Source of the DNA: Akkermansia sp.
Lineage (GTDB): Bacteria; Verrucomicrobiota; Verrucomicrobiia; Verrucomicrobiales; Akkermansiaceae
DNA: 64,000 nt
Direction of reading: 5' to 3'
NCBI GenBank assembly: GCA_017546445.1
Contig: JAFYWX010000042.1
Coordinates: forward strand, 1-64,000
Of this stretch, positions 24,090 through 55,400 are shown in pieces. Under the pieces are notes generated by a model that had not been told where the DNA came from, did no database searches, and worked only from the letters and a program-made list of their open reading frames with translations. A program made the position numbers and the translations under genes. The stretch's first letter is position 1. Every line of letters begins with the position of its first letter.

Positions 24090-27000
24090 TTAGAAGTTGA
24101 TGCGATAACCCACCGTGCCGTTCACGTTGGTGTAGTCGCTGCGCAGCTCCACGGAGGCATCCATGAAGATGCTGCCACCTTCCTGGCCTACCGGGATGGT
24201 CAGGCCGGCACCGGCTTCCAGACCGAAGGCACCCATCTCCGTGCTGTCCACGTTGGTGGAGGCGCCAGGCAGAGCATTCAGAGCAACCTTGCTGCTGCCG
24301 CTGCGGTCACCGGCATCAACCTTGGCCAGCACGCGGGCTTCCAGGATGCTGGTGCGGTTGTACATGCTTTCGCCGACAACAGCCTGCAGACGAGCACCCG
24401 CACCGATGGTGATGGTATCCAGCGTCTGCTCACCCACTTCCAGAGCCAGGTCGCTGCCGGTCTCCGTGTAGGCATCCACCGAGGTGTGACGCCAGGCCAC
24501 ATTGAACACGGGCTGCAGGCAGGCTGTGCCATCTTCATCCAGCGCGTAGACATGACCCAGTTCGTACATGAAGCCGAAGCTCATGCCGGAGGTCTCGCCC
24601 TCAAGCTGCACACCAGCCACAGTGCGGTCGAGGCTGATATCGGACGAACCGATGGTGGCCACGAAGGTGTGGGTCCAGGCGCTCGGGGCATAGCGGGCAA
24701 ACACGCTCACGTAACAGGAATCCATGCTGCCGGTCGCCGTATCGGCACCCGTCACATCCAGATCACCATACATGGCGGTCAGGGCCATACCGGCGGTCAC
24801 AGTCGGGCTGAAGTCCACATCGAAGCCCACGGTACCACCCCAGCTGTTGAGCTCGTAACCGCTTTCGGAGCCGCTCTCACCCAGCTCAGAGCGATCGCCC
24901 TCAGCGTTAATCCAGGCGTTGAAGTAGGGCATGTCATCATTGGCCACGCTCTGGTCCACACCCATGGTGGTGGTGCGGTTGCGGATAGCCTTCAGCTGGC
25001 GTTCCACATCGCCCATGGCGGCCATGCCGAGCACAGCGGTGCTGGCACCTGCCAGGCTGGCACCCAGCTCTTCAGCCTTATCCCCGCTGGCGGTATCAAG
25101 GATGCTGAGCACAGCACCCAGGTCACTACCCTTGGTCATCTGCGGGTTGAGGGTCACCAGAGCAGCATCAGCCATGGCAAGACCTGCAGCAGCATTGGCG
25201 CTCACGTCCTTACCGACCTTTTCGGTGTAGTAGCTGGTGTTGCGGCCTGCGGCCACCACCTTGCCATCCTTCACTTCCCAGCCGGAGAAGTACTTGTCAT
25301 AGGCAGCAATACCCTCTACCACAATGTCGTCTACATCCACGGTGATGGAATCGAGGCTGACAAGACCATTATTCGTGAGGGACTTGACCTCAGCATCGGT
25401 CAGCGTAAGACCAGTATTGGTGGAAGTAATGTTGAGCTTGGAATCCTGCAGAACAAGGTTACCGGTAAGCTTGGTTCCCTCAGTCACGGAAAGCACACCG
25501 TTCTCCAGAGTACCATTCAGGGTCACACCCTCCTTAGCCGTGGTCACGGTGGTGTCAGCAAGAGCCAGGTTGGCTACAACACCGTTGTCGATAGTGAGGC
25601 CGGCAACACCGTTACCACCAGTGATGGAAACCTTGCTGCCCGTTACCTTCACCTCGCCGGTAGCACCGGAACCGATGTTGATGGTACCGCCCTGGGCGGC
25701 GATGCCGTTGACAGAGGCGTTAATATCCACCAGACCGGACTTCAGGCTGATTTCCTTGGCCACGGCTGCCTTCACATCAACTGTACCACCATCCACCGTC
25801 AGACTCTGCTTCACCAGGGCAGTCTGCACCTTCAGCGTACCGCCAGCGGCCAGAATTTCCTTGGTATCGTTGGCCTTCAGCGCAGTATTGAGAGCAGAGT
25901 TGTAGGTCAGATCAGTATTGACAACGTATGTATCGTGAGAGAACGTAAGCTTCTCCGTCAGGATACCGTTGTTGTAAACATAATCTGCATCAGAGCCGGA
26001 ATTCCACTGCACCTCGGACTCATCCACAATCGCAGCATTACCTGTCACGACGGTGTAGATATTCGTGGTGGAAGCATAGCCGTTGCCCTTTTCAGTCAGC
26101 TCACCATTCAGGTCAGTGAACACGCTGGTTCCCTTGTACTCAAGGTTGCTGATATTGATTTCACCGGTAAGTTCCAGGTTACCTTCGTTCGTCAGAGCAT
26201 CGGTCAGGGTTACGTTGCTCAGCGTAATCTTCTTATCACCTTCGATGGTCACCTTACCAAGGGTACCGCCGTCGATGCTCCAATCCACCTTGTTGGCCTT
26301 GAGAGTACCAGCCTCAATGTTGGTTTCCGCGGACTGGAAGCCATCCTTGGAGGTAATTTCCAGCGTACCGCCCGTCATGGTGAAGGAATCGGCTACTACA
26401 CCGCCCACAGTCATATCACCGCTGTTGACAATGGAACCTTCAGCAATGGACGCGGAGCGCAGGCTGTATACGGAGGTCGGAGAAGTGGCCACAAGCATGC
26501 CCTTGATATCAAGAGTACCCTTGTTTTCCACGGTCTTCACTGCGGCACTATCAGCCTTCAGGGTAGAAGCCTCTGCAACAGCAATGTTGGTGGCTACCAC
26601 ATCACCCTTAGCGGCCAGAGAGCCCTTCTCCTCAACATCGATATCGCCGGCTACCACAACGCTCTGAGCAGTCAGATTAGAAGCCTGCACAACAATGCTG
26701 CTGGCTTCCACATCGCCCTTGGCAGCCAGGGTTGCACCGCTGCCCACGGTCACCTGGGCAGTAGCTGCCTGCAGGCTGCCGGTGGTCAGGGTACCACCGC
26801 TCACGGTGAGGGCAGAATCCTCGCCCACCACGGTATCACCTTCCACGGTCACCTCATTCTTCACCGTAAGGGTTGCGCCATAGTTCACCGTCAGGTTTTC
26901 GGCAACGTCAATGGAATCACCCGTAAGGACGTAATCTTCCTTGGCAGTGTGGTTGGAGACGATGATATTCTGCACGCTGGCATTACCGCTCACCTCCACT

Positions 27001-30000
27001 TCGGAGGCACCACCGCCAATGAAGGCTAAGTCAGACCCCTCGGCAATGGAATCGCTGTCCAGAACTGAGGATGCGGAATCATCCTCCCAGACCACCAGCC
27101 CCTCGCGAAGGGTGGTAATGAGCTCCAGCTTGTTGCCATCCCAGCAGAGCTTGGCATCATACAGATTATCCTTACCGGTACCCTTTTCAATAGAAGTACC
27201 TTCAGCAAGGATATCAAGGCCGTTATAGCTCATCTTGCCCGTGCTGGTTTCCTTGAGCGTGATAAGGGTGGTGCTGGTGGCGGTCACATTGCTCAGGGCA
27301 GCGGTAGACAGACTGATAGCCAGATCACCACCACGCATGGACAGAGTATCTGCCTCCAGCACAGCATCGTAGGAATTGAAAGTAAGCTGCTCACCCAGAA
27401 TCAGCTCAGCACCTGTGGCATTAAGAGCACCACCCAGAGTCAGGGCATCAGCAGAGAATTCCACCTTCTTGCCCAGAGCCAGTGTCGTATCAGTGTCGAT
27501 TACCGCAGCAGTGGTAGATACAATGCCGTTCCAGTCAGCAGAAAGCTTCACCGGACCGGTCAGGGTCAGGGAATCACCATTGAGGTATACACCCTTACCA
27601 GCCAGCTGGGCCGTACCGGCATTGTTCTCGACAAAATCATCAGAGGAGTCCAGAGTCTGACCCTCGGCAATGTTAATCGTGCCGCCATTGGCTGCCACCT
27701 CGAGCTTAATAGTACCCAGGTCCTTGCCGATGACCAGTTCACCACCATTGAGCTTGAAGGACTCGGCAGAATCACCGTCATCATTGGTAAGGTTCAGCGC
27801 ATCATTGTAGGTAACCGTGCCGGAGCTTACCCAGTAGGTAGTGCTCACACCGTGGTCTGCAACCAGGGAACCACCTTCCTTCAGTGTTACAGCGTAACCG
27901 TTCACCTTGAGGCCCGTGGTATCCACCGAAGCACCTTCACCCAGAGCGATGACGCCAGCGTACACATCAGATGTGTAGTCGAAGCCGTTTCGGGTTTCAT
28001 CAGCAAAGGTGATATTCTGGACACAGGAGAAACCGCTCAGCGTGGTTTCGCCGGTAAGAGCCAGCGTACCGGCATTCACTGTAATCTGGCTGCTCAGGTC
28101 AGCGCCTGTCAGGGTTACCGTGCCCGTGGTATCTACTACCACACCTGCACCCAGTGCAGCACCAGCAGCGCTCCAGGTACCCTTCAGCGTGGTACCGGAA
28201 ATGCTGATATCGGTGGAGGTGATGGCTGCGCCTGCACCAACGATTTCGAGAGAACCGCCCGTGGAGGTCAGCTTGCCGGAAATACCACCAGCCGTCAGTG
28301 CACCGCTGTTGGTCACCTCGCAGGCCACATCGCCAGCAACATTCAGAGCAGCGCCGGCCTTCACCTCTACAGAGGTGGTGCCTCCCATGGCGCTCAGGTT
28401 CAGGGTACCACCGTTCACGGTGATATCACCCGCCCAGTCAGCACCCAGGGTATCAACCGTGGCAGTGCCCGTCTCGCTCTTCACCAGAGAACCAGTACCA
28501 GCAATGGAGCCAGTGCCGGCATTCAGTTCCTGCGTGGTGGCAATCTCAAGGGTAGCACCCGTTGCAACATTCACCGTGCTGGCGGCCATGCTGGCGGTGC
28601 CGGTAAGCTGCAGCGTGCCTTCGTTCACATTCACGCTGATACCTGTACCAGTACCGGAAACACCCACCGTGGTAGCCAGAACACCAGCACCCACCTTATC
28701 GATGGTTACGCCAGCAGTCGGCAGAGCACCCACCGTGGCGGTGGCCTTATCTGCCACTTCCACCTTGTTGAAGCCGGTGAAGCTTACACCCGTGCGATCC
28801 TGCGTACCGGTAAACACAAGCGTGCTATCACCCGTAATCACAGAGTTGGTCTGGCTGGTCTTGTAACCACCGGAAATAATCTTACCATCTGCAATGGTAG
28901 CAGCGGCAGAGAGCTTCACCGTGGTGGATTCCGTGGTAAGGTTGGTTGCGTTGCCCTGGTAACCGGCTGCGTACACATCGCCGGCAATCTCACCACCCTG
29001 CAGGTCGATGACAATATCGCCCTGAGTGATGGTGGCATCTGCCTTGTTACGCACGGTGTAGGTACCGCCGTAGACGTTGGTCACCTTGCCACCGGAGATG
29101 ATGATGGTGCTGTCGCCCATGGAAGCGGTCACGGCCGCATCACCTGTGCCGTTGATATAGAGACCACCGATAAGGTCGGCATTCAGGGTGCCGCCGCTCA
29201 CGGTCACGCTGGTGTTACCCACGGTAAGAGTGCCTGCGCCGGTTTCGAGATGGCTGCCTGCCACCACCTTATCAGCAAAGGTACCACCGGACAGGGAGAT
29301 GACTACATCGCCCGTGGTGCTGGTGCCGGCAGTTTCATGATAGGCACCGCCGTATACAGCGCCATTGAAGGTGCCGCCGGAGATGGAAAGGCTGGTGCCA
29401 CCCGTGGTGGACGTGAAGTTGCCAGCCAGGTAGGAACCGGCTACAACCTTGGAGGAGTAGGTGGAGGCACCACTGATATTGACAGATGAGGTACCCGTGG
29501 TGTTGATGGAGCCGCCATTGTTGCGAGAACCACCCACAATATCAGCCGTGAAGGTCACGTCAGAATTACCGATGATGTTTACGTTGGTATCACCGGTGAT
29601 GTTGGCCTGGTAGGTACCAGTCCAGTTGAAGTGGCCACCAATCAGCTTCTTGGCGAAGTTAGCAGCATCGCCGGTGTATCCGGAGAGATCAACCGTCACA
29701 TTGGTGGTGCCGGTCAGGTTGTTGGTGCAACCACGGCTCTGCGGGTCAAAGGATGTACCAGCGCCAATCACAGCATCGCCAGGAGCGGCACCACCCATAC
29801 CGTTGGTGTTGACGGTGCTCAGCGGCACATAAACATAGATGTTCGTGGTACCATTGAAGTGGGTCGTGTTGCCGTGAGCATTCGTACCGGAACCAACGAT
29901 GGCGGCGGTCACATCGCCACTGAAGATGGAGATGTAGCTGTTGCCGGTGAATACCGGGCCGCGGCCGTCCTGGTGAGAACCACCCACGATGGAGCCAACG

Positions 30001-33000
30001 GTGGCGCCATCAACCACGATATGGGAATCACCATTGAAGTTGCCAACTGTACCGGAACCCCAGGAGTTAGCGAAATGACCACCCACAATCAGCTTGTACT
30101 GCCCCTCTTCTGCGCGGATCCAGGTATCGCCCTGGAAAGCAGTGTTAGAGGTGCCGCTCGGGAGGAGGGAACCACCAAAGACCGATACGCCAGCGCCACC
30201 ACCGGTCAATACGGCAGCAATGCGGCCGGACTGGTTATCGGCATCGGTGCCTGCCAGGCTGAAATCACCACTTTCAGGCACAGCAACCTGTGCAGGAGAC
30301 ATCGGGGAGGAAATAATGGCATCCATGCCCCAGTTCATATCCCAGTCAGTGTGCAGCTCTACATCACTGATAAGCTTCCAGTAACCGTTGCTGTTCTGCA
30401 GGGTGTATTCACCGGCTTCCAGGCCGAGAACGGAAATCTTATCTGCAGAGATGCTGCTGGCAAGACCCAGCTCAATACCCTGTGCCAGCTGGTCCTGCAG
30501 GGCCATGATATTGATGACCACATTGCTGTTCAGGCTACCAATCTGCAGCAGGGAACCTTCCATGGTGCCGTAGGAAAGAATGGCATTATCAGCAAGGCTC
30601 AGGTTGTTGATGGTCAGCGGGCCTTCATGGTTCATGTTGAGCTGAGAGCCCACCATGTTGTTAATGACCAGGCTACCCTCACCCTTCTTGTTGAAGAAGC
30701 CGGTAGCGTTGTTCACCGTGAGCACCACGCCGGCATCCAGAACCACATCACCGCTGCCGCCCAGGGTCTCCATGGTGGCGGTCGTGCCTTCTGCACTCAG
30801 AGAACCACCTGCCAGGCTTACCACAGATGTAGCAGAGGAGCCATCGAGCATCTTGAGCACGCCTTCATTCACGAATACCGTGCCACCGGTGGTCACCGTA
30901 CCACCGATAGCCAGGGTACCTGCACCCGTCTTGGCCAGGTTACCATTGTTGTTGTTACCCAGATTGCCAAGTGATGTCAGGGTACCATCCACCACATTCA
31001 TAGTGGTGGTCTGGCCGCTGTTTCTCAGGCGCACAGGAGCATCAATGCTGCTCTCGCCGTAGGAAACGATGGTGCCACCATTCTCGAAGAAGTCAAGTGC
31101 GCCATAAGCATCGCCCGTGCCGAAAACAGTTGCATCCTTGAGAACAAGCGTGCACTCGGAAGGAAGAGACTGGCGGTGTTCGCCCAGGTCCAGCGAGCCG
31201 CCATCAACGGTGATGGTGAAATTGTTGCTTGCAGTGTAGTTAATCACGTCACTACCTGCAAACTTCAGCGTACCCTGCACCACCATGTCGCGGCTGATAA
31301 GGCCGGAGGCGGATTCCGTGAGCGTGGTGCCCTCAGCAATATAGATGGTACCGCCGCTGATGCTGGTGGTACCAAGGCTCCCTGACAGAGAGGTTTCACC
31401 CTCTACAGCAATCGTCAGCTTGCTATCCGCGCTCAGGGTAATGGAGCTCAGGGAGTTACCGGTGGTCTGCACCGTCAGGTCGCCTTCCACAATTGTGGCT
31501 GCGGAGCTCACAGTGCCCGTGCCGGCCAGAATCAGGTTTGTGCCGGCTTCCACCGTCAGTTCGGAGGCGGCAATAGCACCCTCAACCGTGGCGGTCACAT
31601 CGCCCTGGTTGCCTGCAATGGCGACCAGCGCATTGTTGGTGAATGCCACGCCGTTATCAAATGCAGAACCTTCTGTCCAGGTCAGGGAGGGGCCACCGCT
31701 CCAGGTGACCAGTTTCTGGACGGAAAGCACACCTGTGCTGTCCAGCACCCAGGTGCCATCGCCCTCATAACCGGCTACCTGCACCTTGCCGGCAGTCAGC
31801 GTGCCGCCGTTTACCGTGAAAAGCTGGTAGGTATCACCACCGGTCCAGCCGCTCAGGTCAAAAATGGTCGTGTTTTCGTTTACAGTAAGCGTACCGGCAG
31901 TCAGGGTCACGGTATCAACAATCTTCACCGTGCCATTCAGGTTGGCATTGGCCCCCAGGGACTGACCGGAGCCCAGATTCAGAACACCACCGTCCTGCAG
32001 GTTGATGACGGAAGAGAAAGCAGCAGAGGTGTTCAGCGTGAGCATACCACCTGCCAGAACGCTCATATCAGAGCAGTTCATGTTACCTTCACCAGTGAAC
32101 TTGAGCTCACCTTCACGCACGTAGAAGGTGTGGGAGAAGGCACTGGCGGCGGTCATTTCCATGATACCATCGCCCAGCTTCTGCACGCGGCGGCCCCAAT
32201 CGCCATTCACCAGGCGGGCAGACATCAGAAGGTCGGCGGTATTGGTGGCATCAATATCGAAAGTGCCACGTGCTACGTTGAACTCGTAGCCTTCACCATC
32301 GCCACCGGCACCATTGTTACCAGCCTTGATGGCGCCGGGACCGGTAATTTCAGACATCTGCGTAGCGTCTGCCGTGATATTGATGGAACTGGTACGGCGC
32401 TCAAAGCATACAGCAGTAGCTTCGTTGGCCAGAACAATCTTACCACCACTCAGGTTGATAACGGTGTTGTTAAGATAGAAACTTTCGGGGGTCTGAATGG
32501 TCCACTCAGAGCCGGCAGCCATGTTCACCGTGCGCAGAGCCGTACCACGATTCCCGTTTTCCCAGCCGAACAGGTTCTTCGACTGCAGCCTGGCGCCAGC
32601 TTCAAGGTTAATGGTGACATCTGCACCCTCCTTGCTGGCGAATACGCAGTAACGGCCTTCATCGGTGGTTACGTCCAGCGTGGCACCCGTGGCAATATTC
32701 ACGGTGGATACACCCTTGTTCTCAGCCTGGGCGGTGGCCCAGGTCACCGTGCCATCGGTCACATTCAGAGTGATGCTGGCATCCGTGGCATCTCCCTCAA
32801 ACTGGATGGATTCACTGATTGTTACGCCATCGCCAACATTCAGCACATCGCCATCAGAGAAACTGGCGGTGGGGTCCGTGGAGGTGGCTGCAGAAGCCTG
32901 ACCTGACAGCACAAATGCGACAAACCCACCAGCAAATGTGGCAGAGCCGACAGTGGAGCTGGCAATACCGGCTACGGCTGTGATACAAGCCAGCACGGAG

Positions 33001-33032
33001 TTGCGAAGCAGTTTCGGGAGGTGTAATTTCAT
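24090..33032 (-). CDS. Giant autotransporter (2980 residues)
   Basis: Signal peptide MKLHLPKLLRNSVLACITA... ends around residue 48 (SGQASA-ATS). A very long beta-helical passenger follows, built from short strands with recurring GGTL, GTLxxxG and autotransporter-associated beta-strand motifs. A section at about 980-1390 repeats units of the form 'VVAGSHL...TSVTVSGGTLNADLIGG'. The linker DVERQLKAIRNRTTTMG (about 2690) leads into a C-terminal beta-barrel that ends GYRINF. Predicted to be an outer-membrane-anchored surface protein. The passenger is Thr/Ser/Gly/Val-rich with few Cys. The ligand is unknown. At 8.9 kb it is the largest gene in the window. Confidence 0.9.
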   Translation of the reverse strand: MKLHLPKLLRNSVLACITAVAGIASSTVGSATFAGGFVAFVLSGQASAATSTDPTASFSDGDVLNVGDGVTISESIQFEGDATDASITLNVTDGTVTWATAQAENKGVSTVNIATGATLDVTTDEGRYCVFASKEGADVTINLEAGARLQSKNLFGWENGNRGTALRTVNMAAGSEWTIQTPESFYLNNTVINLSGGKIVLANEATAVCFERRTSSINITADATQMSEITGPGAIKAGNNGAGGDGEGYEFNVARGTFDIDATNTADLLMSARLVNGDWGRRVQKLGDGIMEMTAASAFSHTFYVREGELKFTGEGNMNCSDMSVLAGGMLTLNTSAAFSSVINLQDGGVLNLGSGQSLGANANLNGTVKIVDTVTLTAGTLTVNENTTIFDLSGWTGGDTYQLFTVNGGTLTAGKVQVAGYEGDGTWVLDSTGVLSVQKLVTWSGGPSLTWTEGSAFDNGVAFTNNALVAIAGNQGDVTATVEGAIAASELTVEAGTNLILAGTGTVSSAATIVEGDLTVQTTGNSLSSITLSADSKLTIAVEGETSLSGSLGTTSISGGTIYIAEGTTLTESASGLISRDMVVQGTLKFAGSDVINYTASNNFTITVDGGSLDLGEHRQSLPSECTLVLKDATVFGTGDAYGALDFFENGGTIVSYGESSIDAPVRLRNSGQTTTMNVVDGTLTSLGNLGNNNNGNLAKTGAGTLAIGGTVTTGGTVFVNEGVLKMLDGSSATSVVSLAGGSLSAEGTTATMETLGGSGDVVLDAGVVLTVNNATGFFNKKGEGSLVINNMVGSQLNMNHEGPLTINNLSLADNAILSYGTMEGSLLQIGSLNSNVVINIMALQDQLAQGIELGLASSISADKISVLGLEAGEYTLQNSNGYWKLISDVELHTDWDMNWGMDAIISSPMSPAQVAVPESGDFSLAGTDADNQSGRIAAVLTGGGAGVSVFGGSLLPSGTSNTAFQGDTWIRAEEGQYKLIVGGHFANSWGSGTVGNFNGDSHIVVDGATVGSIVGGSHQDGRGPVFTGNSYISIFSGDVTAAIVGSGTNAHGNTTHFNGTTNIYVYVPLSTVNTNGMGGAAPGDAVIGAGTSFDPQSRGCTNNLTGTTNVTVDLSGYTGDAANFAKKLIGGHFNWTGTYQANITGDTNVNIIGNSDVTFTADIVGGSRNNGGSINTTGTSSVNISGASTYSSKVVAGSYLAGNFTSTTGGTSLSISGGTFNGAVYGGAYHETAGTSTTGDVVISLSGGTFADKVVAGSHLETGAGTLTVGNTSVTVSGGTLNADLIGGLYINGTGDAAVTASMGDSTIIISGGKVTNVYGGTYTVRNKADATITQGDIVIDLQGGEIAGDVYAAGYQGNATNLTTESTTVKLSAAATIADGKIISGGYKTSQTNSVITGDSTLVFTGTQDRTGVSFTGFNKVEVADKATATVGALPTAGVTIDKVGAGVLATTVGVSGTGTGISVNVNEGTLQLTGTASMAASTVNVATGATLEIATTQELNAGTGSIAGTGSLVKSETGTATVDTLGADWAGDITVNGGTLNLSAMGGTTSVEVKAGAALNVAGDVACEVTNSGALTAGGISGKLTSTGGSLEIVGAGAAITSTDISISGTTLKGTWSAAGAALGAGVVVDTTGTVTLTGADLSSQITVNAGTLALTGETTLSGFSCVQNITFADETRNGFDYTSDVYAGVIALGEGASVDTTGLKVNGYAVTLKEGGSLVADHGVSTTYWVSSGTVTYNDALNLTNDDGDSAESFKLNGGELVIGKDLGTIKLEVAANGGTINIAEGQTLDSSDDFVENNAGTAQLAGKGVYLNGDSLTLTGPVKLSADWNGIVSTTAAVIDTDTTLALGKKVEFSADALTLGGALNATGAELILGEQLTFNSYDAVLEADTLSMRGGDLAISLSTAALSNVTATSTTLITLKETSTGKMSYNGLDILAEGTSIEKGTGKDNLYDAKLCWDGNKLELITTLREGLVVWEDDSASSVLDSDSIAEGSDLAFIGGGASEVEVSGNASVQNIIVSNHTAKEDYVLTGDSIDVAENLTVNYGATLTVKNEVTVEGDTVVGEDSALTVSGGTLTTGSLQAATAQVTVGSGATLAAKGDVEASSIVVQASNLTAQSVVVAGDIDVEEKGSLAAKGDVVATNIAVAEASTLKADSAAVKTVENKGTLDIKGMLVATSPTSVYSLRSASIAEGSIVNSGDMTVGGVVADSFTMTGGTLEITSKDGFQSAETNIEAGTLKANKVDWSIDGGTLGKVTIEGDKKITLSNVTLTDALTNEGNLELTGEINISNLEYKGTSVFTDLNGELTEKGNGYASTTNIYTVVTGNAAIVDESEVQWNSGSDADYVYNNGILTEKLTFSHDTYVVNTDLTYNSALNTALKANDTKEILAAGGTLKVQTALVKQSLTVDGGTVDVKAAVAKEISLKSGLVDINASVNGIAAQGGTINIGSGATGEVKVTGSKVSITGGNGVAGLTIDNGVVANLALADTTVTTAKEGVTLNGTLENGVLSVTEGTKLTGNLVLQDSKLNITSTNTGLTLTDAEVKSLTNNGLVSLDSITVDVDDIVVEGIAAYDKYFSGWEVKDGKVVAAGRNTSYYTEKVGKDVSANAAAGLAMADAALVTLNPQMTKGSDLGAVLSILDTASGDKAEELGASLAGASTAVLGMAAMGDVERQLKAIRNRTTTMGVDQSVANDDMPYFNAWINAEGDRSELGESGSESGYELNSWGGTVGFDVDFSPTVTAGMALTAMYGDLDVTGADTATGSMDSCYVSVFARYAPSAWTHTFVATIGSSDISLDRTVAGVQLEGETSGMSFGFMYELGHVYALDEDGTACLQPVFNVAWRHTSVDAYTETGSDLALEVGEQTLDTITIGAGARLQAVVGESMYNRTSILEARVLAKVDAGDRSGSSKVALNALPGASTNVDSTEMGAFGLEAGAGLTIPVGQEGGSIFMDASVELRSDYTNVNGTVGYRINF

Positions 33033-38753: not shown

Positions 38754-39668
38754 TGCCGCTATCTTTTCCGCAAGTTGACGCGGAGTATCCCCTGCCCCTG
38801 CAGGAATGGGAGTAAGCCATTTCTCTCGCCGTAACCACGTGCGCTGACGCTTGGCATACTGACGCGTGGCCAGCGATATGGCAGAAACGAGCTCAGAGCG
38901 CGTACAGCGGCCTTTCAGATAATCCTGCACCTGTGACAAGCCAAGCGTCTTGGAGGCCGTTGTAGAGAGCGTGAGCCCCTGCAACGCGGCAACCTCGTCT
39001 ATCGCACCATCCCGGAGCATCTGCTCTGTGCGACGCGCTATGCGGGCATCGAGCTCGGCAGTGTCGCGCACTATCCAGAATCCCGTTCCACGAGGCTCCT
39101 GCCAGTTATTCCGCCAGTAAGATAGCGGCTTGCCACCCAGCAGCACGATTTCCAGATTGCGTACCACATAGCGCTGGTTGCATAAGTCAGTCGCCGCAGC
39201 CCCCTCCGGGTCCGCTTCACGCAGCCGTGCCACTGCTTCTTCCAGAGTTAAGGCATTCAACTCCTCCCTCAACGCTGCATCAGAAGGCGGCGCAGGAGAA
39301 ATTCCGTGGGATATAAACTTGACGTAAAGCCCTGAGCCTCCTGTGTGTACGGGTAGCATGCCACCCTTTTGAAGTTTGGTGGAAATTTGCTCTGCCCGAC
39401 GCGCATGCTCAGCCGCATCATTGTTCTCTGTAGGCTCCATAAAACCTACCAAATGGTGTTTCACACGCAACATTTCCTCCTGGGTAGGAGCAGCGGTGAT
39501 GATGGGCATCCTCTTATAGACCTGATAGGCATCTGTACTGATAATTTCAGCATTCCCCAGAATCTCAGCAAGCTCTACCGCCACCGCGCTCTTCCCACTT
39601 CCTGTGGAACCAAGAATAAATACAGATTTTGTTCCATGTGGAACACAAGACTGAGGAGATGTTGTCAT
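38742..39668 (-). CDS. miaA: tRNA dimethylallyltransferase
   Basis: Adds a dimethylallyl group to A37 of tRNAs that read UNN codons. 308 residues: P-loop LGSTGSGKS (about 19-27), the ISTDAYQVYKRM segment that holds the catalytic Asp, HHLVGF, HTGGSGLYVKF, QRYVVRNLEI and TRQYAKRQRTWLR, all characteristic of MiaA. A parS-like palindrome lies inside the first 13 codons (39630-39645) and encodes Val-Pro-His-Gly-Thr. A second lies 27 nt upstream of the start. No convincing promoter is seen. Confidence 0.97.
   Translation of the reverse strand: MTTSPQSCVPHGTKSVFILGSTGSGKSAVAVELAEILGNAEIISTDAYQVYKRMPIITAAPTQEEMLRVKHHLVGFMEPTENNDAAEHARRAEQISTKLQKGGMLPVHTGGSGLYVKFISHGISPAPPSDAALREELNALTLEEAVARLREADPEGAAATDLCNQRYVVRNLEIVLLGGKPLSYWRNNWQEPRGTGFWIVRDTAELDARIARRTEQMLRDGAIDEVAALQGLTLSTTASKTLGLSQVQDYLKGRCTRSELVSAISLATRQYAKRQRTWLRREKWLTPIPAGAGDTPRQLAEKIAASLR
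39630..39645. promoter_or_regulatory. parS-like site 1
   Basis: TGTTCCATGTGGAACA, a perfect 16-bp palindrome close to the bacterial ParB-binding site. It lies inside the 5' coding region of miaA. Confidence 0.75.
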
Positions 39669-39694: not shown

Positions 39695-39710
39695 TGTTCC
39701 ATGTGGAACA
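39695..39710. promoter_or_regulatory. parS-like site 2
   Basis: TGTTCCATGTGGAACA, identical to site 1 and 65 bp from it, in the miaA upstream region. Confidence 0.75.
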
Positions 39711-40189: not shown

Positions 40190-40205
40190 TGTTCCATGTG
40201 GAACA
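40190..40205. promoter_or_regulatory. parS-like site 3
   Basis: TGTTCCATGTGGAACA, identical to sites 1, 2 and 6, in the non-coding stretch between miaA and the glycosyltransferase gene. Confidence 0.75.
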
Positions 40206-41868: not shown

Positions 41869-41884
41869 TGTTCCACATGGAACA
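41869..41884. promoter_or_regulatory. parS-like site 4
   Basis: TGTTCCACATGGAACA, the reverse complement of the sequence at sites 1-3 and 6. It lies between the ncRNA promoter and the argS promoter. Confidence 0.75.
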
Positions 41885-43721: not shown

Positions 43722-45095
43722 ATGAAATCCTTAAATCTTATCCTCTGCCTAGCTTGTGTAATTCCTTGCTGGGCAGAGGATAACACTTTATCAGACATGG
43801 CTGCTTCAAGTGCAGAAAAATCGCATATTTCTCTCCCGTTTACCAGTGAGAATGTTGCACTTAAAATGCACCTGAATCAGGGTATGCAGGCCTGCCTTTT
43901 CAACTACAGAGAGAAGGCTGTCTACCACTTTAACCAGGCCACTAAACTGGACCCCGAATGTGTGATGGCACGCATATGCCACATGCTTCTTCACTCCAGC
44001 CGCAGTCAGGAATACAAGGACAGCCTGCAGGCAACCAATCAGCTACTGGAGGACGCTATGCTCACCCCCGTGGAGGAGTGGTATGTCTCCACTTTTCTGC
44101 AGCATATTACCGGCGATATACAAGGTGCTGCCGATGCCTTCCACAAACGCGCCTCGGTATACCGGCGAGACCTCACCGCAGCTCTCTGGGATATCCAGCT
44201 GAACCTGCATAGAGCAGGGCAGGGGAGCGATATCATCACCCGCGCAGACGCTCTTGCAGAGCGTTTCCCTGATAATCCCCTGGTACATTATTGCCGCGCT
44301 CTGCTTGATGAGCACTCTGCCATGCCCTCTGAAAAGGGCCTGAAATGCGCCCAGAAAGCCGTAAAGTTGATGCCCGGCTCACCTGCTGCACACCAACTAC
44401 TAGGGCATCTTCTTGGCCGTTCTGGACGCCATAACGAGGCTATTCCACACATCTCGGAGGCTCTTCGTTTGTACAAGGCGGATTTAAGCCACATTGAGAC
44501 CTCCCATGCTGCAGGTTATCGTACCTGTCAGCTTGCAGAGGCCAGCGCTTATTGGGAAGCCGGTAACAAGGCAGATGCTCTTAAGCGTAGTCTTGCGCTT
44601 ATCCGCGAAATCCCCGGAACTATAGCAGGCGAGGGTGATATTCTTCTACATTGGGAGGCCCGCACACTACCGCTCCGTCTTCTGGTCATGCAGCCTGTGG
44701 CACCTTCAGCAGCTGCTATCAATGCCGCCGCCAAGGCCTGCAATGCACCTCAGAATACCCCTCTGGAGCTTATCCGGAAATGCCTTGTGGCAGCCATCCA
44801 GGCACGCGCTCTGGCAGATTCCGGACGCCCCATCATTGCCCAGCAGACCCTCACCAAATCCGAAAAGATTCTGGATGAACTCTGCAAGGAAACAGACAAT
44901 ATGATACAGCAGGGCGGGGTGACACACACCTGTTACAGCCGAGCATTGAGTGCCTGCATGGGGGCTACAATTCGCGCCAAAATCGCCCTCTACAAGGATA
45001 GTGCAGACATCTGGCAACCCCGCCTTGATACCATATTAAATCGCCGTCAGACACGCTTCCTGCCACCCGTTTTACCCAGGCTACCACAGCCTTAA
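43722..45095 (+). CDS. Secreted TPR-repeat protein
   Basis: 457 residues with a signal peptide (about 1-18, ending CWA). TPR-like helical pairs are visible, for example NYREKAVYHFNQATKLDP (about 61-78), GLKCAQKAVKLMPGSPAAHQLLG and RHNEAIPHISEALRLYKAD. Such proteins act as protein-protein scaffolds; partner unknown. It sits 11 nt after argS, probably in the same transcript, which ends at the palindromic terminator at 45106. Confidence 0.8.
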   Translation: MKSLNLILCLACVIPCWAEDNTLSDMAASSAEKSHISLPFTSENVALKMHLNQGMQACLFNYREKAVYHFNQATKLDPECVMARICHMLLHSSRSQEYKDSLQATNQLLEDAMLTPVEEWYVSTFLQHITGDIQGAADAFHKRASVYRRDLTAALWDIQLNLHRAGQGSDIITRADALAERFPDNPLVHYCRALLDEHSAMPSEKGLKCAQKAVKLMPGSPAAHQLLGHLLGRSGRHNEAIPHISEALRLYKADLSHIETSHAAGYRTCQLAEASAYWEAGNKADALKRSLALIREIPGTIAGEGDILLHWEARTLPLRLLVMQPVAPSAAAINAAAKACNAPQNTPLELIRKCLVAAIQARALADSGRPIIAQQTLTKSEKILDELCKETDNMIQQGGVTHTCYSRALSACMGATIRAKIALYKDSADIWQPRLDTILNRRQTRFLPPVLPRLPQP

Positions 45096-45105
45096 ATCAC
45101 CAGAC

Positions 45106-45138
45106 AAGGGATGTTCCACGTGGAACATCCCTTATTTT
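45106..45138 (+). terminator. Terminator whose stem contains parS site 5
   Basis: A perfect 28-bp palindrome (45106-45133) extends the parS core by AAGGGA/TCCCTT and is followed by ATTTTTC. It can serve as an intrinsic terminator for the argS operon as well as a ParB site. Confidence 0.75.
45112..45127. promoter_or_regulatory. parS site 5, exact consensus
   Basis: TGTTCCACGTGGAACA, the fully symmetric form of the bacterial parS consensus. It lies in the centre of a larger palindrome. Confidence 0.85.
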
Positions 45139-45149
45139 TCAGCCTTTTC

Positions 45150-45178
45150 TTTACAAGGCAGAATCAATATGCTAGACT
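45150..45178 (+). promoter_or_regulatory. Leaderless promoter of first lipoprotein
   Basis: -35 TTTACA (45150-45155), 17-bp spacer, -10 TAGACT (45173-45178). Only 6 nt separate it from the ATG at 45185, so transcription should begin at the start codon. Confidence 0.6.
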
Positions 45179-45184
45179 TAAGAC

Positions 45185-45805
45185 ATGACAATAAAGCACC
45201 TCATGAAAACCGGTCTGTACGCAGGCGCAGTTTTCCTGTCTTCATGCGCTTATATGCAAACGCATAAGAATATTGAGGAGAACAGCAGAGAACACATTGG
45301 TTACCATCTGAATTCCGGATTACAGCTTTACAGGGCAGGGGGAGATTACTACCTTTCCGTGGCACGACAACGCCTCCGCATGCATTATCCTGCTATCTAT
45401 GATTCTATATTCCTGATCAGGAATAACGACCCGGCGTTCACTCAGATTGGCGACGAGCAAACCACAGTGTACCGCAAGATTTCAGCCGGTACAGCTACTG
45501 TGCTTCAGCTCAAGGACGGGTACGCAGAGCTCAGCGTGCTGTGCGATGAACTCCGCAACAGCGACTCCAGCTGGCTCGAAACGCTTCCTGCAGGGGCCCA
45601 GCCTTGCGGCATCAAAGCCACCATCAACGGAGAAGCAACTACCTGGGTCCAGCCAGGAAGCGGTACCGCAGTTTCACCCTGCATCAAGCTCGTCAGCACC
45701 ATTGATGAGGTAATCGTAGACTGGCCTGGCACCATTCTTTACAACCTGGCCATACCCGTCATGGCGCCCTTTGCCTTTTTCCACGAATTTTTAAACGAAG
45801 AATAA
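45185..45805 (+). CDS. Lipoprotein, unknown function
   Basis: 206 residues with a lipoprotein signal peptide; lipobox FLSSC, Cys21. The mature part has no recognised domain. The C-terminal segment IDEVIVDWPGTILYNLAIPVMAPFAFF is hydrophobic and resembles the equivalent segment (LSTIVIDMPASFLYSPP) of the next gene, which suggests two members of one small family. The next gene starts 7 nt downstream, so both are likely one operon next to the origin. Confidence 0.75.
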   Translation: MTIKHLMKTGLYAGAVFLSSCAYMQTHKNIEENSREHIGYHLNSGLQLYRAGGDYYLSVARQRLRMHYPAIYDSIFLIRNNDPAFTQIGDEQTTVYRKISAGTATVLQLKDGYAELSVLCDELRNSDSSWLETLPAGAQPCGIKATINGEATTWVQPGSGTAVSPCIKLVSTIDEVIVDWPGTILYNLAIPVMAPFAFFHEFLNEE

Positions 45806-45812
45806 TACCACC

Positions 45813-46469
45813 ATGAACAAAAAACTCTTAACTTTCATGACCACGAGTGCCTTGCTTGCCCTGGGAACCAGTTCCTGCAGCGTTTGCAGCCACACCGCAG
45901 TGGCTGATATGGGCCGCAGCGCAGACGCTATTCTGCTGCCTTTGGAACAACCCACCCTCTACAAGGTAGACAAGCAGTGGTACATGCTAGGTCACAAAAC
46001 CAGCGTAGAGCGGTGCAACGCCCCCTGGGTTCGCCCGGAACAGCTTTTTGCAGATAAGCGCCACCCGGAGCGCTATAGCCTCGATAGCGACGAAATGACC
46101 CCTGTGTACTCCCCTATTCCCACAGAACTTGCGAACAGCCTGCAGAAGGGCAGATACACCCATTCTGACGCCATCAGCTTCATTAACCGCAAGTGGGTCG
46201 AAACCCTGCCGACAGAGGAGGCACAGGAGGTCAAGCTCACTGTCTCTGCCCCTGATTACTTCCGCAACATGTCCTCCCACCGCATCATGCAGACAGAGCA
46301 GGGCACTTTCCTGCTGGCCTATATCGGGGAAATGAATGCCGATTTCGGTGCCATTCTGGCCTATCCGCTCGCCGCCCTTTCCACTATCGTGATTGATATG
46401 CCTGCCAGTTTCCTGTACAGCCCCCCTGTAAAGAAACAGCAGGTTGCCCAGCCGGAGGTCATAGAATAA
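45813..46469 (+). CDS. Lipoprotein, related to upstream gene
   Basis: 218 residues; signal peptide with a probable lipobox LGTSSC (Cys22). Shares the general layout of the upstream lipoprotein: a short N-terminal tail, a Lys/Trp-containing 'YKVDKQWYMLGHK' stretch and a hydrophobic 'IVIDMPASFLY' near the C-terminus. Function unknown. Followed by a strong terminator and then the origin region. Confidence 0.75.
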   Translation: MNKKLLTFMTTSALLALGTSSCSVCSHTAVADMGRSADAILLPLEQPTLYKVDKQWYMLGHKTSVERCNAPWVRPEQLFADKRHPERYSLDSDEMTPVYSPIPTELANSLQKGRYTHSDAISFINRKWVETLPTEEAQEVKLTVSAPDYFRNMSSHRIMQTEQGTFLLAYIGEMNADFGAILAYPLAALSTIVIDMPASFLYSPPVKKQQVAQPEVIE

Positions 46470-46495
46470 TCCGCATCTCCGTACTATTTCCTCTC

Positions 46496-46526
46496 ATGCC
46501 CCACTTGTGAAAAGTGGGGCATTTTT
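46496..46526 (+). terminator. Terminator of lipoprotein operon
   Basis: An 11-bp stem ATGCCCCACTT/AAGTGGGGCAT (46496-46506 with 46512-46522) with a 5-nt loop and a run of T. It shields the origin from incoming transcription. Confidence 0.9.
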
Positions 46527-46554
46527 CTACTCTCAATCATCTCTGCATCAACAC

Positions 46555-46775
46555 TTTATCATACTTATCCACAATAATTGTGGATAAAACTGTGGATAAG
46601 CTGTGGATTTTACTGTTTATAACTTTTATTCACATTGGGAGCGTAGGTTACCAACAGGGTTACCAACAAATGAAACCTCCCTCTTTTTTATTGATAAACA
46701 ATCGCTTGTCATACTTATCCACTTATCCACACGAGTGAAGATGATGGTTATATTTATATACTGAAAATACATCTA
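46555..46775. other. oriC: Probable chromosomal replication origin (oriC)
   Basis: Perfect DnaA boxes (TTATCCACA or its complement) lie at 46565-46573 (+), 46579-46587 (-), 46591-46599 (-) and 46723-46731 (+). Near matches are at 46602-46610, 46626-46634 and 46715-46723. Two direct copies of GGTTACCAACA (46646-46656, 46658-46668) lie between the box groups. AT-rich stretches flank the right-hand boxes (about 46682-46705 and 46743-46770) and could be the unwinding element. The region is non-coding and bounded by a terminator on the left and the ribD promoter on the right. dnaA is not nearby. Four perfect 9-mers in under 170 bp cannot reasonably be chance. Confidence 0.85.
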
Positions 46776-46812
46776 TCCAAGAGAAAAAGTGGCTGCCTCT
46801 CCAGGGCACGAC

Positions 46813-46840
46813 TTGACAGGACAACATTGCCTGATACAAT
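46813..46840 (+). promoter_or_regulatory. Leaderless promoter of ribD
   Basis: Consensus -35 TTGACA (46813-46818), 16-bp spacer, -10 TACAAT (46835-46840), 6 nt before the ATG at 46847. It directly borders the origin region. Confidence 0.7.
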
Positions 46841-46846
46841 ACCCCC

Positions 46847-47884
46847 ATGCAGGAACAGGAACATCAGCAGTGGATGCAGCATGCGCTTCAACTCGCCCGG
46901 CATGGTCTGGGACTCACCAGTCCTAATCCGCCGGTAGGTGCCGTGATAGTGCTCAACGGTGAGGTGCTGGGTGAAGGCTTCCACGAGGTGGCAGGAGAAG
47001 CCCATGCCGAGCGCCGGGCCATAGCAGATGCCTACGCGCGTGGAAACGGTCATCTCTTACCAAGTGCTACCATCTATGTTACCCTGGAGCCCTGTTCCAG
47101 CGTGGGCCGCACCGGGGCCTGTACCGATGCTATCATTCAAGAGAAACTCGGACGCGTGGTCTATGGCTCCACAGACCCCGATCTGCGCCACCAGGGCCGC
47201 GCAGACGCGCTTTTGCAAGCCCAGGGTATAGAAGTATGCCCCGGCGTGTACAAAGACGCTTGTGACCACTTTCTGCGCTCCTGGTTCCATGCCATCCAGA
47301 CCGGGCGCCCCTGGGTTACCGCCAAAGTGGCCACCACGCTGGATGGCCGCATGACGCGCCGTCAGAATTTCTGGCTGAGCGGGGTCGAGACCCTGCGCCA
47401 TGCACACCAGCTCCGGTTGGAGAGCGATGCCATCCTCATCGGCGGCAACACCCTTCGAACAGATAACCCGGCATTGACCATCCGGACCCCGCTTCAGACC
47501 CCATCTCCCCGCAAGCAGCAACCCTGGCGCGTGGTGCTTACCAATAATATGCTTTCCCTGCCACCCATGGCCACCTTGTTCACGGATGAGCACAAGGAGC
47601 GAACCCTCCTGTGGGAAAACGTAAAGGATTTCCGCGTTCTCCTCAACGAGCTCTATACCCGTTACGGGGTGGTGAATCTCATGCTTGAATGCGGTGGCCG
47701 CCTGTTGCGCCGGTTCCTGGAGGAGGGGCTCGTGAACGAATGGATGCAGAGCATATCTCCCATGGTTGGCGCCGGACCCGATTTTCTGGTACCCGGAGAC
47801 TTCCTGCCCCAGGAGTTTATCTTCCAGCGAGAGTCTCTCATCGAATGCGAACGCGATATCATCATTCGCGGCACGCTCGGATGA
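46847..47884 (+). CDS. ribD: Riboflavin biosynthesis deaminase/reductase
   Basis: Carries out the second and third steps of riboflavin synthesis (pyrimidine deamination, then ribosyl reduction). 345 residues: the N-terminal zinc deaminase has HAE (53-55) and the PCSSVGRTGAC pair (C83, C92). The C-terminal reductase has TAKVATTLDGRMT, SDAILIGGNTLRTDNPALT and LMLECGGRLLRRFLEEGLV. ribE lies 5.5 kb downstream on the same strand. No FMN riboswitch-like leader is possible here because the transcript should be leaderless. Confidence 0.96.
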   Translation: MQEQEHQQWMQHALQLARHGLGLTSPNPPVGAVIVLNGEVLGEGFHEVAGEAHAERRAIADAYARGNGHLLPSATIYVTLEPCSSVGRTGACTDAIIQEKLGRVVYGSTDPDLRHQGRADALLQAQGIEVCPGVYKDACDHFLRSWFHAIQTGRPWVTAKVATTLDGRMTRRQNFWLSGVETLRHAHQLRLESDAILIGGNTLRTDNPALTIRTPLQTPSPRKQQPWRVVLTNNMLSLPPMATLFTDEHKERTLLWENVKDFRVLLNELYTRYGVVNLMLECGGRLLRRFLEEGLVNEWMQSISPMVGAGPDFLVPGDFLPQEFIFQRESLIECERDIIIRGTLG

Positions 47885-47911
47885 TGGCAGCGTAGCATGA
47901 GCTGGTGCGAT

Positions 47912-47927
47912 TGTTCCATGTGGAACA
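47912..47927. promoter_or_regulatory. parS-like site 6
   Basis: TGTTCCATGTGGAACA, in the gap between ribD and the lipoprotein pair, about 1.2 kb to the right of the DnaA boxes. Confidence 0.75.
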
Positions 47928-47953
47928 AAATACCTGCAGCAGCATGATTATAC

Positions 47954-47982
47954 TTGCCGAAGCGGGGTATATGGAGTAGAAT
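47954..47982 (+). promoter_or_regulatory. Promoter of the Cys-His-Asp lipoprotein pair
   Basis: -35 TTGCCG (47954-47959), 17-bp spacer, -10 TAGAAT (47977-47982). The leader would be about 15 nt. Confidence 0.65.
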
Positions 47983-48003
47983 GCGAAACCTGCTTTACCG
48001 GAA

Positions 48004-48744
48004 ATGAGAAAAGGTTCACATCTGTTAGTTATATGCATGCTTGCTGCGTTGGGCTTAGTATCCTGCTATCCGCCGCAGATTCAATATCCGTATACCGAGA
48101 TGGTGACAAACCGTCGGCTGGTATTAAAGGATAATCTGCTGGCTCTGCTGCCGGCGGAGCAGCAACCGGCAGCACTGGAGGAGGCCACCTGGCTGGCCGA
48201 CACAGCCTACAAGGCCGCCGCGGGTATTGCGCGCTTGAATGGTTCCTGTTTTCCTGGGTGGGCAGGGAATGCTCTGGTTAATGCGCACTTTCAGGACCGC
48301 GGGCTCTGCTGGCATTACCAGCATGATATGTACCGGGAGCTTCGGCGGCGTCCCCTGCAGTATTTCCGGATAGGGTGCTGCGTGCGCGATTGCGGCAAAG
48401 CCTCGGAGCACAACTGCGTGTACGTGGCTGCGAAAGATGCTGCATGGCCGGCAGCCTGGGTGCTGGATGCCTGGATGTGGAACGGGCGATTGAAGGTGGA
48501 TGATGCGCGCAAGTTGAGCGCAAGCCGCTGGGCTGATTTGCCGTCTATTGCCCGTCTTCAGTCCATCTACTATGCAGAGGGGCACCAGTGGCCCATGGAG
48601 CATTGGAGTGTGCTGCGTGGCCCGGAGGGGCAGTACGAAGGGTACTGGCTTCCGGAGATGCGGCAGTCCCCCCAGTACCGCCGCATGTACGACAATATCG
48701 AGGCAGGGAAAAAGGAACACCCCGGTTATCTGACCAATTATTGA
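48004..48744 (+). CDS. Lipoprotein with transglutaminase-like Cys-His-Asp pattern (1)
   Basis: 246 residues; lipobox LGLVSC (Cys21). The core reads RGLCWHYQHDMYRELRRRPL, then SEHNCVYVAAK, then WVLDAWMWNGRL. The spacing of Cys102, His136 and Asp155, each in a hydrophobic strand or helix start, matches the catalytic order of transglutaminase-like and related papain-fold enzymes (inference). Helical N-terminal segment LADTAYKAAAGIAR precedes it. It is a paralogue of the next gene, separated by a single nucleotide, so the two are translated from one message. A lipid-anchored peptidase or cross-linking enzyme acting in the periplasm is possible. No database family was recognised. Confidence 0.7.
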   Translation: MRKGSHLLVICMLAALGLVSCYPPQIQYPYTEMVTNRRLVLKDNLLALLPAEQQPAALEEATWLADTAYKAAAGIARLNGSCFPGWAGNALVNAHFQDRGLCWHYQHDMYRELRRRPLQYFRIGCCVRDCGKASEHNCVYVAAKDAAWPAAWVLDAWMWNGRLKVDDARKLSASRWADLPSIARLQSIYYAEGHQWPMEHWSVLRGPEGQYEGYWLPEMRQSPQYRRMYDNIEAGKKEHPGYLTNY

Positions 48745-48745
48745 C

Positions 48746-49489
48746 ATGAGAAACCTTCTCCTACTTTTCTTCATCGCGGTATCCCTGGGGGTGGTTGCCT
48801 GCCAGAACGCCCCCAGGCTGGATTATGCAGAGCTGCCCCATGTGGTCAAGAAACGTCAGGACTTGAAAGAAAAATTGCTCCAGCTGCAGCCGGAGTCATT
48901 GCGAAGCGCCGCCGGGCAGGAAGCGCTCTGGCTGGCCGATACGGCTTACAAGGCCGCTGCTGCCATAGCCCGTTACAACGACCCCATTCTTGTGAACTGG
49001 CTCAACAACCGCGCGGTGAACTCCCGGAGAAACTACCGCCAACGCGGGCTCTGCTGGCATTATCAGCACGACCTGTATCGCGAGCTTCGCCGCCGGCCGC
49101 TCAAATATTATGAGCTGGGTTGTTGCCTGCGCGACCAGGGCAGGGGGGGAGAGCACCATGTTGTCTACGTCAAAGCCAAGTCTGGCAAATGGCCCTCCAT
49201 CCTCATGCTGGATGCCTGGTGGATGTCTGGGCGTCTCGTGGTGGAGGAGGCAGAGGATATGGAGGACTGGATGGATGACCCGAAGTGCGCCGCACGGCTG
49301 AACGTGATATACCCGGAGGGGCACAAGCTTCCCCTGGAACACTGGGCCATGATCCGCACGGGTTCCAGCTATGGGGAGTACATCTACAGCGATCTGCCCG
49401 CGGCCCGAAACACCGCCCAGTGGAAGTACATGCAGAAGCAGATGAAGAAGGGCCTTCAGGCACGCAAGGGCAAGCCCTTCGATTATTAA
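48746..49489 (+). CDS. Lipoprotein with transglutaminase-like Cys-His-Asp pattern (2)
   Basis: 247 residues; lipobox GVVAC (Cys19). Conserves every block of the upstream paralogue: LADTAYKAAAAIARYN, RGLCWHYQHDLYRELRRRPL, LGCCLRD, GEHHVVYVKAK, LMLDAWWMSGRL and GHKLPLEHWAMIRTG. Putative catalytic residues Cys103, His137 and Asp156 are retained. Strong conservation of these blocks against diverged ends suggests that both copies are functional. A weak CTAGAG/CTCTAG hairpin (49505-49520) follows without a T-run. Confidence 0.7.
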   Translation: MRNLLLLFFIAVSLGVVACQNAPRLDYAELPHVVKKRQDLKEKLLQLQPESLRSAAGQEALWLADTAYKAAAAIARYNDPILVNWLNNRAVNSRRNYRQRGLCWHYQHDLYRELRRRPLKYYELGCCLRDQGRGGEHHVVYVKAKSGKWPSILMLDAWWMSGRLVVEEAEDMEDWMDDPKCAARLNVIYPEGHKLPLEHWAMIRTGSSYGEYIYSDLPAARNTAQWKYMQKQMKKGLQARKGKPFDY

Positions 49490-54796: not shown

Positions 54797-55400
54797 TTGC
54801 GCTTTTCCCGGCTGGGTACTTACACACTCATTACGGATTATTCCTATGTGAACTCTGCTGCATCGCTGTTCAATGGCGATGTGGCGCAGGTAGTGCGCAA
54901 GCTGCGTCCGGTGGCGGGCGGGCTCATGACGACGCTTTCGACCGAAACGCATTCGTATGCGGTTTCCGGTGGGGTGAAGCGCGAGGAAATCCGCATAACA
55001 GCTACTGGTTCGCCGCATACGCATCTGGAAATCACGGAAACCTGGACGGGTGAGGCTGCCGAGCCGCTCAACCGCGGGCGTCTCCGCTAGAGCCAGGGTG
55101 TGGACGGGGTGCAGCGCTGGTATACCTATGCACCGCATTACCAGCATGGGGCTCTTTATACGATTACGGAGGAAACGCGGGTGGAGGGAGAGCCTGTGGC
55201 CGGGCAGAGCCGCCGCCGGGCAGCCGCTCACCAGCACGCAGAAGCAGCTTGTCTCGCAGCTGAGCCCCACGCTGGAAAGTAAAGTGATTTCTGTCAGTGA
55301 ACGCGGCTTGACTTCCACGCAATGGAGCGTCTATAATACGGATACGAAACGTATCCGGTACATCAGCATTCCTACCTCAATGACAATAATTAAGATGTAG
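54797..55400 (+). pseudogene. Decayed RHS/YD-repeat-like gene fragment
   Basis: The conceptual protein reads LITDYSYVNSAASLFNGDVAQVV...THSYAVSGGVKREEIRITATG...TGEAAEPLN, then an in-frame TAG (55088-55090), then GVQRWYTYAPHYQHGALYTITEETRVEGEPVAG. A frameshift near 55205 moves the frame to LTSTQKQLVSQLSPTLESKVISVSERGLTSTQWSVYNTDTKRIRY. The continuous YD-type text across a stop and a shift shows that this is a broken gene; its 5' part is missing. Probably the tail of an RHS-type surface or toxin-delivery protein. The family call is by pattern only. Confidence 0.6.

Follow-up and report, generated by a model that had tools for sequence, protein, structure and literature searches.

DnaA boxes in the gap upstream of ribD

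The stretch of DNA analysed here (64,000 nucleotides, hereafter the window) carries a ribD gene separated from a short lipoprotein-like gene by a gap without genes, and the gap holds an array of DnaA boxes (Table 1). An earlier note on this sequence had named a lipoprotein operon and ribD as the flanks, in place of the usual dnaA/dnaN/rpmH; the dnaA gene of this genome lies on another contig, C22. Four boxes in the gap match TTATCCACA perfectly (B1, R1, R2 and F6), two differ from it by one mismatch (F2 and F5), and four weaker slots differ by two (R3, R4, F3 and F4). The reverse boxes R1 to R4 are spaced 12, 11 and 12 bp from start to start. The count of four perfect boxes given in the earlier note stands, and its three near-perfect ones come down to two with a single mismatch, the rest being weaker. 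The two direct repeats of GGTTACCAACA, starting at 46646 and 46658, the AT-rich surroundings and the lack of genes are all present as it had reported.

The clustering of boxes in this intergenic gap is above chance. The window contains 21 near-boxes, a number equalled by none of 100 shuffles, and simulated windows (n = 200) contain at most one perfect box per 170 bp, against four in the real gap. AT content, measured in 40-bp windows, ranges from 0.55 to 0.75 over 46520-46800 and peaks at 46740-46779; the AT-rich stretch adjoining the boxes is a candidate unwinding region by composition only. An Rfam scan of positions 45,000-49,000 returned no matches, leaving no riboswitch explanation for the gap. 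A 17-bp near-repeat, TT(A/G)TCATACTTATCCAC, occurs at 46556-46572 and 46706-46722, its copies 150 bp apart and bracketing the array. In the promoter-like site of ribD, the -10 element lies about 6 bp ahead of the start codon (46813-46847), so that the ribD transcript may be leaderless.

Table 1. Features in and around the ribD gap, in window coordinates
Feature	Position	Strand	Basis
Gene-free gap holding the putative oriC	46470..46846		Flanking ORFs; box array upstream of ribD kept genus-wide
Terminator-like hairpin of the upstream lipoprotein-like gene, 11-bp arms then T-rich run	46496..46522	+	Inverted repeat I1
DnaA box B1, TTATCCACA	46565..46573	+	Box scan and aligned slot
DnaA box R1, TTATCCACA	46579..46587	-	Box scan and aligned slot
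DnaA box R2, TTATCCACA	46591..46599	-	Box scan and aligned slot
Weak DnaA box R3, AAATCCACA	46602..46610	-	Aligned slot
Weak DnaA box R4, TTATAAACA	46614..46622	-	Aligned slot
DnaA box F2, TTATTCACA	46626..46634	+	Box scan and aligned slot
Degenerate boxes F3 (46648-46656) and F4 (46660-46668), the two GGTTACCAACA copies	46646..46668	+	Box slots of relatives
Terminal overlapping pair F5 (TTATCCACT, from 46715) and F6 (TTATCCACA, from 46723), adjoining the putative unwinding region	46715..46731	+	Box scan and aligned slots
GA(A/T) trinucleotide array GAAGATGAT, 5 bp past F6, on the box strand	46737..46745	+	Enrichment against chance; kept position
AT-rich stretch, proposed DNA unwinding element	46746..46778		Highest AT content of the gap
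ribD promoter-like site, TTGACA / 16 bp / TACAAT	46813..46840	+	Sequence reading; aligned in most close relatives
ribD (deaminase/reductase), right flank	46847..47884	+	Pfam RibD_C and dCMP_cyt_deam_1
Short lipoprotein-like gene, left flank	45813..46469	+	ORF; Cys-containing signal-like N-terminus; no Pfam match
parS site 1	39630..39645		Motif search
parS site 2	39695..39710		Motif search
parS site 3	40190..40205		Motif search
parS site 4	41869..41884		Motif search
parS site 5, TGTTCCACGTGGAACA	45112..45127		Motif search
parS site 6, directly 3' of ribD	47912..47927		Motif search

Conservation of the array in Akkermansia

Alignment of the DNA upstream of ribD in 34 members of the genus reveals that the DnaA-box array recurs genus-wide. 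The relatives with 83-88% ribD protein identity are Akkermansia MAGs from the guts of ruminants and other herbivores. The common layout comprises about ten slots: a forward box, four reverse boxes at a spacing of 11-12 bp, another forward box, two forward boxes in tandem 12 bp apart and, about 45 bp from there, a terminal forward pair. In the most distant species, some slots cannot be recognised as boxes. The earlier note had taken the GGTTACCAACA pair for the possible site of an additional origin protein. Because relatives carry boxes at the aligned slots, for example TTATGCACC/TTATCCACA or TTATCAACC/TTATACACA, the copies are read as degenerate boxes and not as the site of a separate protein: judged by this alignment, they occupy two of the slots as DnaA boxes in tandem whose sequence has degenerated.

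No box cluster was found upstream of ribD in other families, and a ribD linkage ancestral to the order was rejected on this ground. Some genomes of other families (G042, G045, G049 and G038) have parS within a few kb of ribD. Box pairs also occur away from the array. In the window's genome, two tandem TTATCCACA boxes at G000:C87:39063-39082 (L032:9064-9083) lie directly upstream of a small lipoprotein-like ORF and possibly constitute a DnaA-controlled promoter; not being orthologous to the sites of relatives, they were discarded as a conserved site. Another intergenic pair, of TTATTCACA boxes, is found in G023, G007, G033 and G029 (L169-L172) beside ORFs that are related across the four species; the neighbour tested has no Pfam match.

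Skew, parS sites and the distance to dnaA

The window's genome (2.62 Mb) is divided among 89 contigs, and skew was sampled from complete relatives instead. At the ribD locus of the complete genomes G004 and G015, negative GC skew gives way to positive, with no other flip nearby. The cumulative-skew minimum of a 16-kb stretch falls at 1,238,408 in G004 and at 604,098 in G017, in both cases no more than 0.5 kb from the boxes, and the local minimum of G015 lies about 5 kb away from the array. The window's own contig displays the switch only roughly: its skew (-0.061 in the left arm, +0.032 in the right) is consistent in sign and noisy, and its local minimum, at 54,864, is 8 kb off the boxes. The relatives and the box array therefore set the fine position of the origin.

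The 2.6-Mb genome has six parS sites (TGTTYCAYRTGRAACA), every one of them between 39,630 and 47,927 of the window, close to the array; a reversed-pattern control gave 0 matches. They are 16-bp palindromes near TGTTTCACGTGAAACA and are clustered at the putative origin, as chromosomal parS sites are. An exact site directly 3' of ribD is also present in G004, G015 and G017. The parB gene is found on a separate contig (C31), and mnmG (gidA) and a holA-like gene lie 10-13 kb away from the origin. Unlike in the dnaA-dnaN-rpmH type of origin, dnaA is not adjacent. It is located at G004:422 and G015:2,806,986, about 1.24 and 1.1 Mb from the ribD-locus switch points (circular distances), and in the window's genome a dnaE-like gene comes after it, and the 19 kb around it on its contig contain no DnaA-box cluster.

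The skew flip of the relatives, the clustering of parS, the genus-wide conservation of the array and a distant dnaA without a box cluster all favour an oriC without a neighbouring dnaA, as the earlier note had proposed. The outcomes it had set against its own proposal, a skew minimum elsewhere and absence of the cluster in relatives, were looked for and did not occur. The chromosome of this Akkermansia species almost certainly has its single oriC at the box cluster, and the interval itself is ordinary as an oriC. The cluster might otherwise be a datA-like site of DnaA titration, or a DnaA-controlled promoter of ribD, with the origin placed elsewhere, for instance at dnaA. The promoter-like site directly downstream would suit such a role, and box pairs without origin context do exist at G000:C87:39063 and in relatives. 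However, skew switch and parS cluster coincide with the site in complete relatives, dnaA is 1.1-1.24 Mb off, and the genome's own dnaA has no box cluster; we regard titration or promoter control as a very improbable explanation of the cluster.

A GA(A/T) array past the terminal box

Past the terminal box of the array, GA(A/T) trinucleotides are repeated on the box strand at a distance of 5-8 bp, mostly 5 bp, with AT-rich DNA beyond. At least three units are present in 29 of 38 origins (35 from the genus and 3 from outside it), against 1.4% of shuffles. The arrangement also appears in other families. In G041, the box TTATTCCCA is followed by CCCTATAAGAAGAAGAG (an element of box plus GAAGAAGAAG) at about 497,174; in a 62-kb stretch of G041 the skew minimum falls at 497,358, 0.2 kb from this element, and the ribD of this genome is at 880 kb. 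In G057, TAGAAGAAGAAGAAGAAATTATA adjoins a cluster of boxes that is 2 kb away from parS.

This anatomy, forward DnaA boxes within 16 bp of trinucleotide repeats, resembles the basal unwinding system of B. subtilis and H. pylori (PMC6669920, PMC8287927, PMC8235120), except that the triplets occupy the opposite strand. Common to both are tandem or overlapping forward boxes, a spacer of about 5 bp, A-centred trinucleotides and then AT-rich DNA. Canonical DnaA-trios read 3'-GAT-5' opposite the box strand, which corresponds to 5'-CTA-3' along the box strand itself (PMC8235120, PMC10201434), whereas the triplets of Akkermansia read 5'-GA(A/T)-3' on the box strand. Runs of at least three CT(A/T) on the box strand occur in 4 of 35 genus regions and 0 times in the window, and canonical trios were rejected on both strand and consensus. 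A permissive 3'-NAN-5' run of three opposite the box is present in 21 of the 38 origins, the window included, with a chance expectation of 32% for each; it is absent from every GAA-type origin. In H. pylori, opening was blocked when the trios were reversed in polarity (PMC8235120), and in B. subtilis DnaD binds the single strand opposite the trios (PMC10201434).

With canonical trios absent, we infer the opening step, in which DnaA would bind the box strand of the GA(A/T) array; another partner that binds single-stranded DNA, comparable to DnaD, or a dimeric DNA-binding protein might act at the array instead. The array could conversely be an operator or the site of an architectural protein, tied to ribD or to the origin and taking no part in strand opening. 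An inverted TC(A/T)TC arm 20-35 bp downstream, found in 19 of 38 origins against 16% by chance, fits a dimeric protein and lends itself to this explanation. Against it stands the position of the array, tied to the terminal DnaA box, and its occurrence at the box clusters or skew minimum of other families (G041, G057); since ribD is not adjacent there, the array follows the origin and not ribD. An operator role is possible and, to our judgement, doubtful.

In the favoured mechanism, with the array as a strand-opening element, the origin would work as follows. DnaA-ATP would bind the strong boxes B1, R1, R2 and F6, and the weak boxes R3, R4, F3 and F4 would be filled cooperatively. The terminal pair F5/F6 would serve as a platform from which the DnaA oligomer extends over the GA(A/T) array into 46746-46778 and opens this AT-rich stretch. 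The A-centred triplets of this opening element lie on the other strand than those of the described DnaA-trios. The helicase would be loaded at the opened stretch, forks would depart in both directions, and ParB on the six flanking parS sites would organise segregation.

Recognition helix of DnaA and box sequence

Helix 5 of DnaA domain IV reads (R/K)DHGTV in most genus members, where G corresponds to T435 of E. coli, and the same motif is found in the other families checked (G041, G044, G057, G042 and G037). Within the genus, G435 goes with boxes that are mainly of the TTATTCACA form. The window species and G011 carry T or S at 435, with one residue missing ahead of the motif; their boxes are TTATCCACA, with C in place of T at position 5, where the counts are 13 C to 1 T, compared with 35 C to 147 T. 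In G001, G003 and G031 the helix reads RSHATVLN (S433, A435, N439), and their boxes have C at position 4 and G at position 6, giving TTRCTGACA. Counted without alignment, near-matches to TTRCTGACA amount to 4.3 per origin in the S433/A435/N439 class against 0.4 in G435 species, and the origins of this class have zero near-matches to TTATTCACA. Two TGTCAGYAA...TGTCAG pairs lying close together are found a single time in G003 and a single time in G031, in each case at the ribD-linked origin; no pair fitting this pattern is found in G001.

A tree built without domain IV unites G001, G003 and G031 in one clade and nests the window species and G011 within the G435 species. G018 and G027 carry G435, matching an expectation set in advance; G012 was left out of the comparison because DnaA is missing from its assembly. 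The association of helix and box yields Fisher values of 1e-8 to 1e-10, which overstate it because the boxes within one clade are non-independent and only two events are involved. Most of the dnaA upstream regions read are without evident DnaA boxes and thus unusable as an independent check. Residues 432-435 and 438-439 of DnaA are listed as base-contacting, and box position 5 is tied to helix 5 in Epsilonproteobacteria (PMC5043019); no report on Akkermansia was found in the literature searched.

These sequences indicate joint changes of the oriC boxes and the recognition helix, in at least two lineages of the genus. Shared ancestry combined with drift of the boxes, leaving DNA specificity unchanged, would produce a similar pattern, given only two independent changes, each within one clade, and non-independent box counts within clades. 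We nonetheless find drift an unlikely cause: the change runs in parallel through most slots of the array, residues 433, 435 and 439, at which the helices differ, are among the base-contacting positions, the near-match counts set the TTRCTGACA class apart from the G435 species, and G018 and G027 fit the advance expectation. A combined proposal is put forward tentatively, as a conjecture: Verrucomicrobiales might open their origins with a DnaA filament on the box strand over 5'-GA(A/T)-3', in a polarity opposite to that of Bacillus and Helicobacter, and one genus might have jointly switched initiator and box specificity at least twice, resulting in related species with separate codes.

Relation to known systems

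Origins that lie away from dnaA are known already. For a set of mouse gut isolates, A. muciniphila YL44 among them, dnaA was noted to be no reliable marker of the origin (PMC10197239). Skew switch, DnaA boxes and the parS cluster mark the origin there as here; the present analysis differs in giving the exact interval, the box slots, the ribD neighbour and genus-wide conservation. The TTCAC-core boxes of Epsilonproteobacteria (PMC5043019) are similar in their lineage-specific consensus, T at position 5 and changes in helix 5, whereas Akkermansia holds three classes of box and helix in one genus, including TTRCTGACA with S433/A435/N439. In Thermotoga maritima, whose DnaA recognises 12-mer boxes, substitutions in domain IV likewise shift the preferred box, according to the account of Ozaki et al. 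2006 given in PMC6669920; compared with the 12-mers of that account, Akkermansia keeps the 9-mer register and the core -ACA end. Chromosomal parABS systems share the 16-bp palindromic parS grouped around the origin, and the window's genome differs from them in having parB on another contig. As far as the literature was searched, the ribD-linked interval with its genus layout, the paired changes of DnaA and boxes, and the strand-reversed trinucleotide array appear to be new.

In a gut genus that is the subject of much research, the locus fixes the putative start of replication. Sequence records starting at dnaA, such as G004, would have coordinate 1 about 1.24 Mb off the true start, which would affect growth-rate estimates from read depth. 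The natural pairs of DnaA and DnaA box might be used to probe how the code of an essential initiator changes jointly with all of its sites, and the array raises a testable question, namely which strand the initiator filament uses in origin opening.

Other observations

Two very long ORFs are located on the minus strand of the window, at 24090-33032 (2980 aa; no Pfam match) and 17927-23695 (1922 aa). Upstream of dnaA (L033 at about 8100-8360; L177-L187), many species carry AATATCA(A/G)GAAA..TTAAC and GTGGAAC..CATGGAAC-like repeats, the latter resembling half of a parS site; few of these species have DnaA boxes there. A second, weak Bac_DnaA match (E 3e-6) is encoded at G017:C1:1560441-1560791 (L093), in G017 only among the genomes searched.
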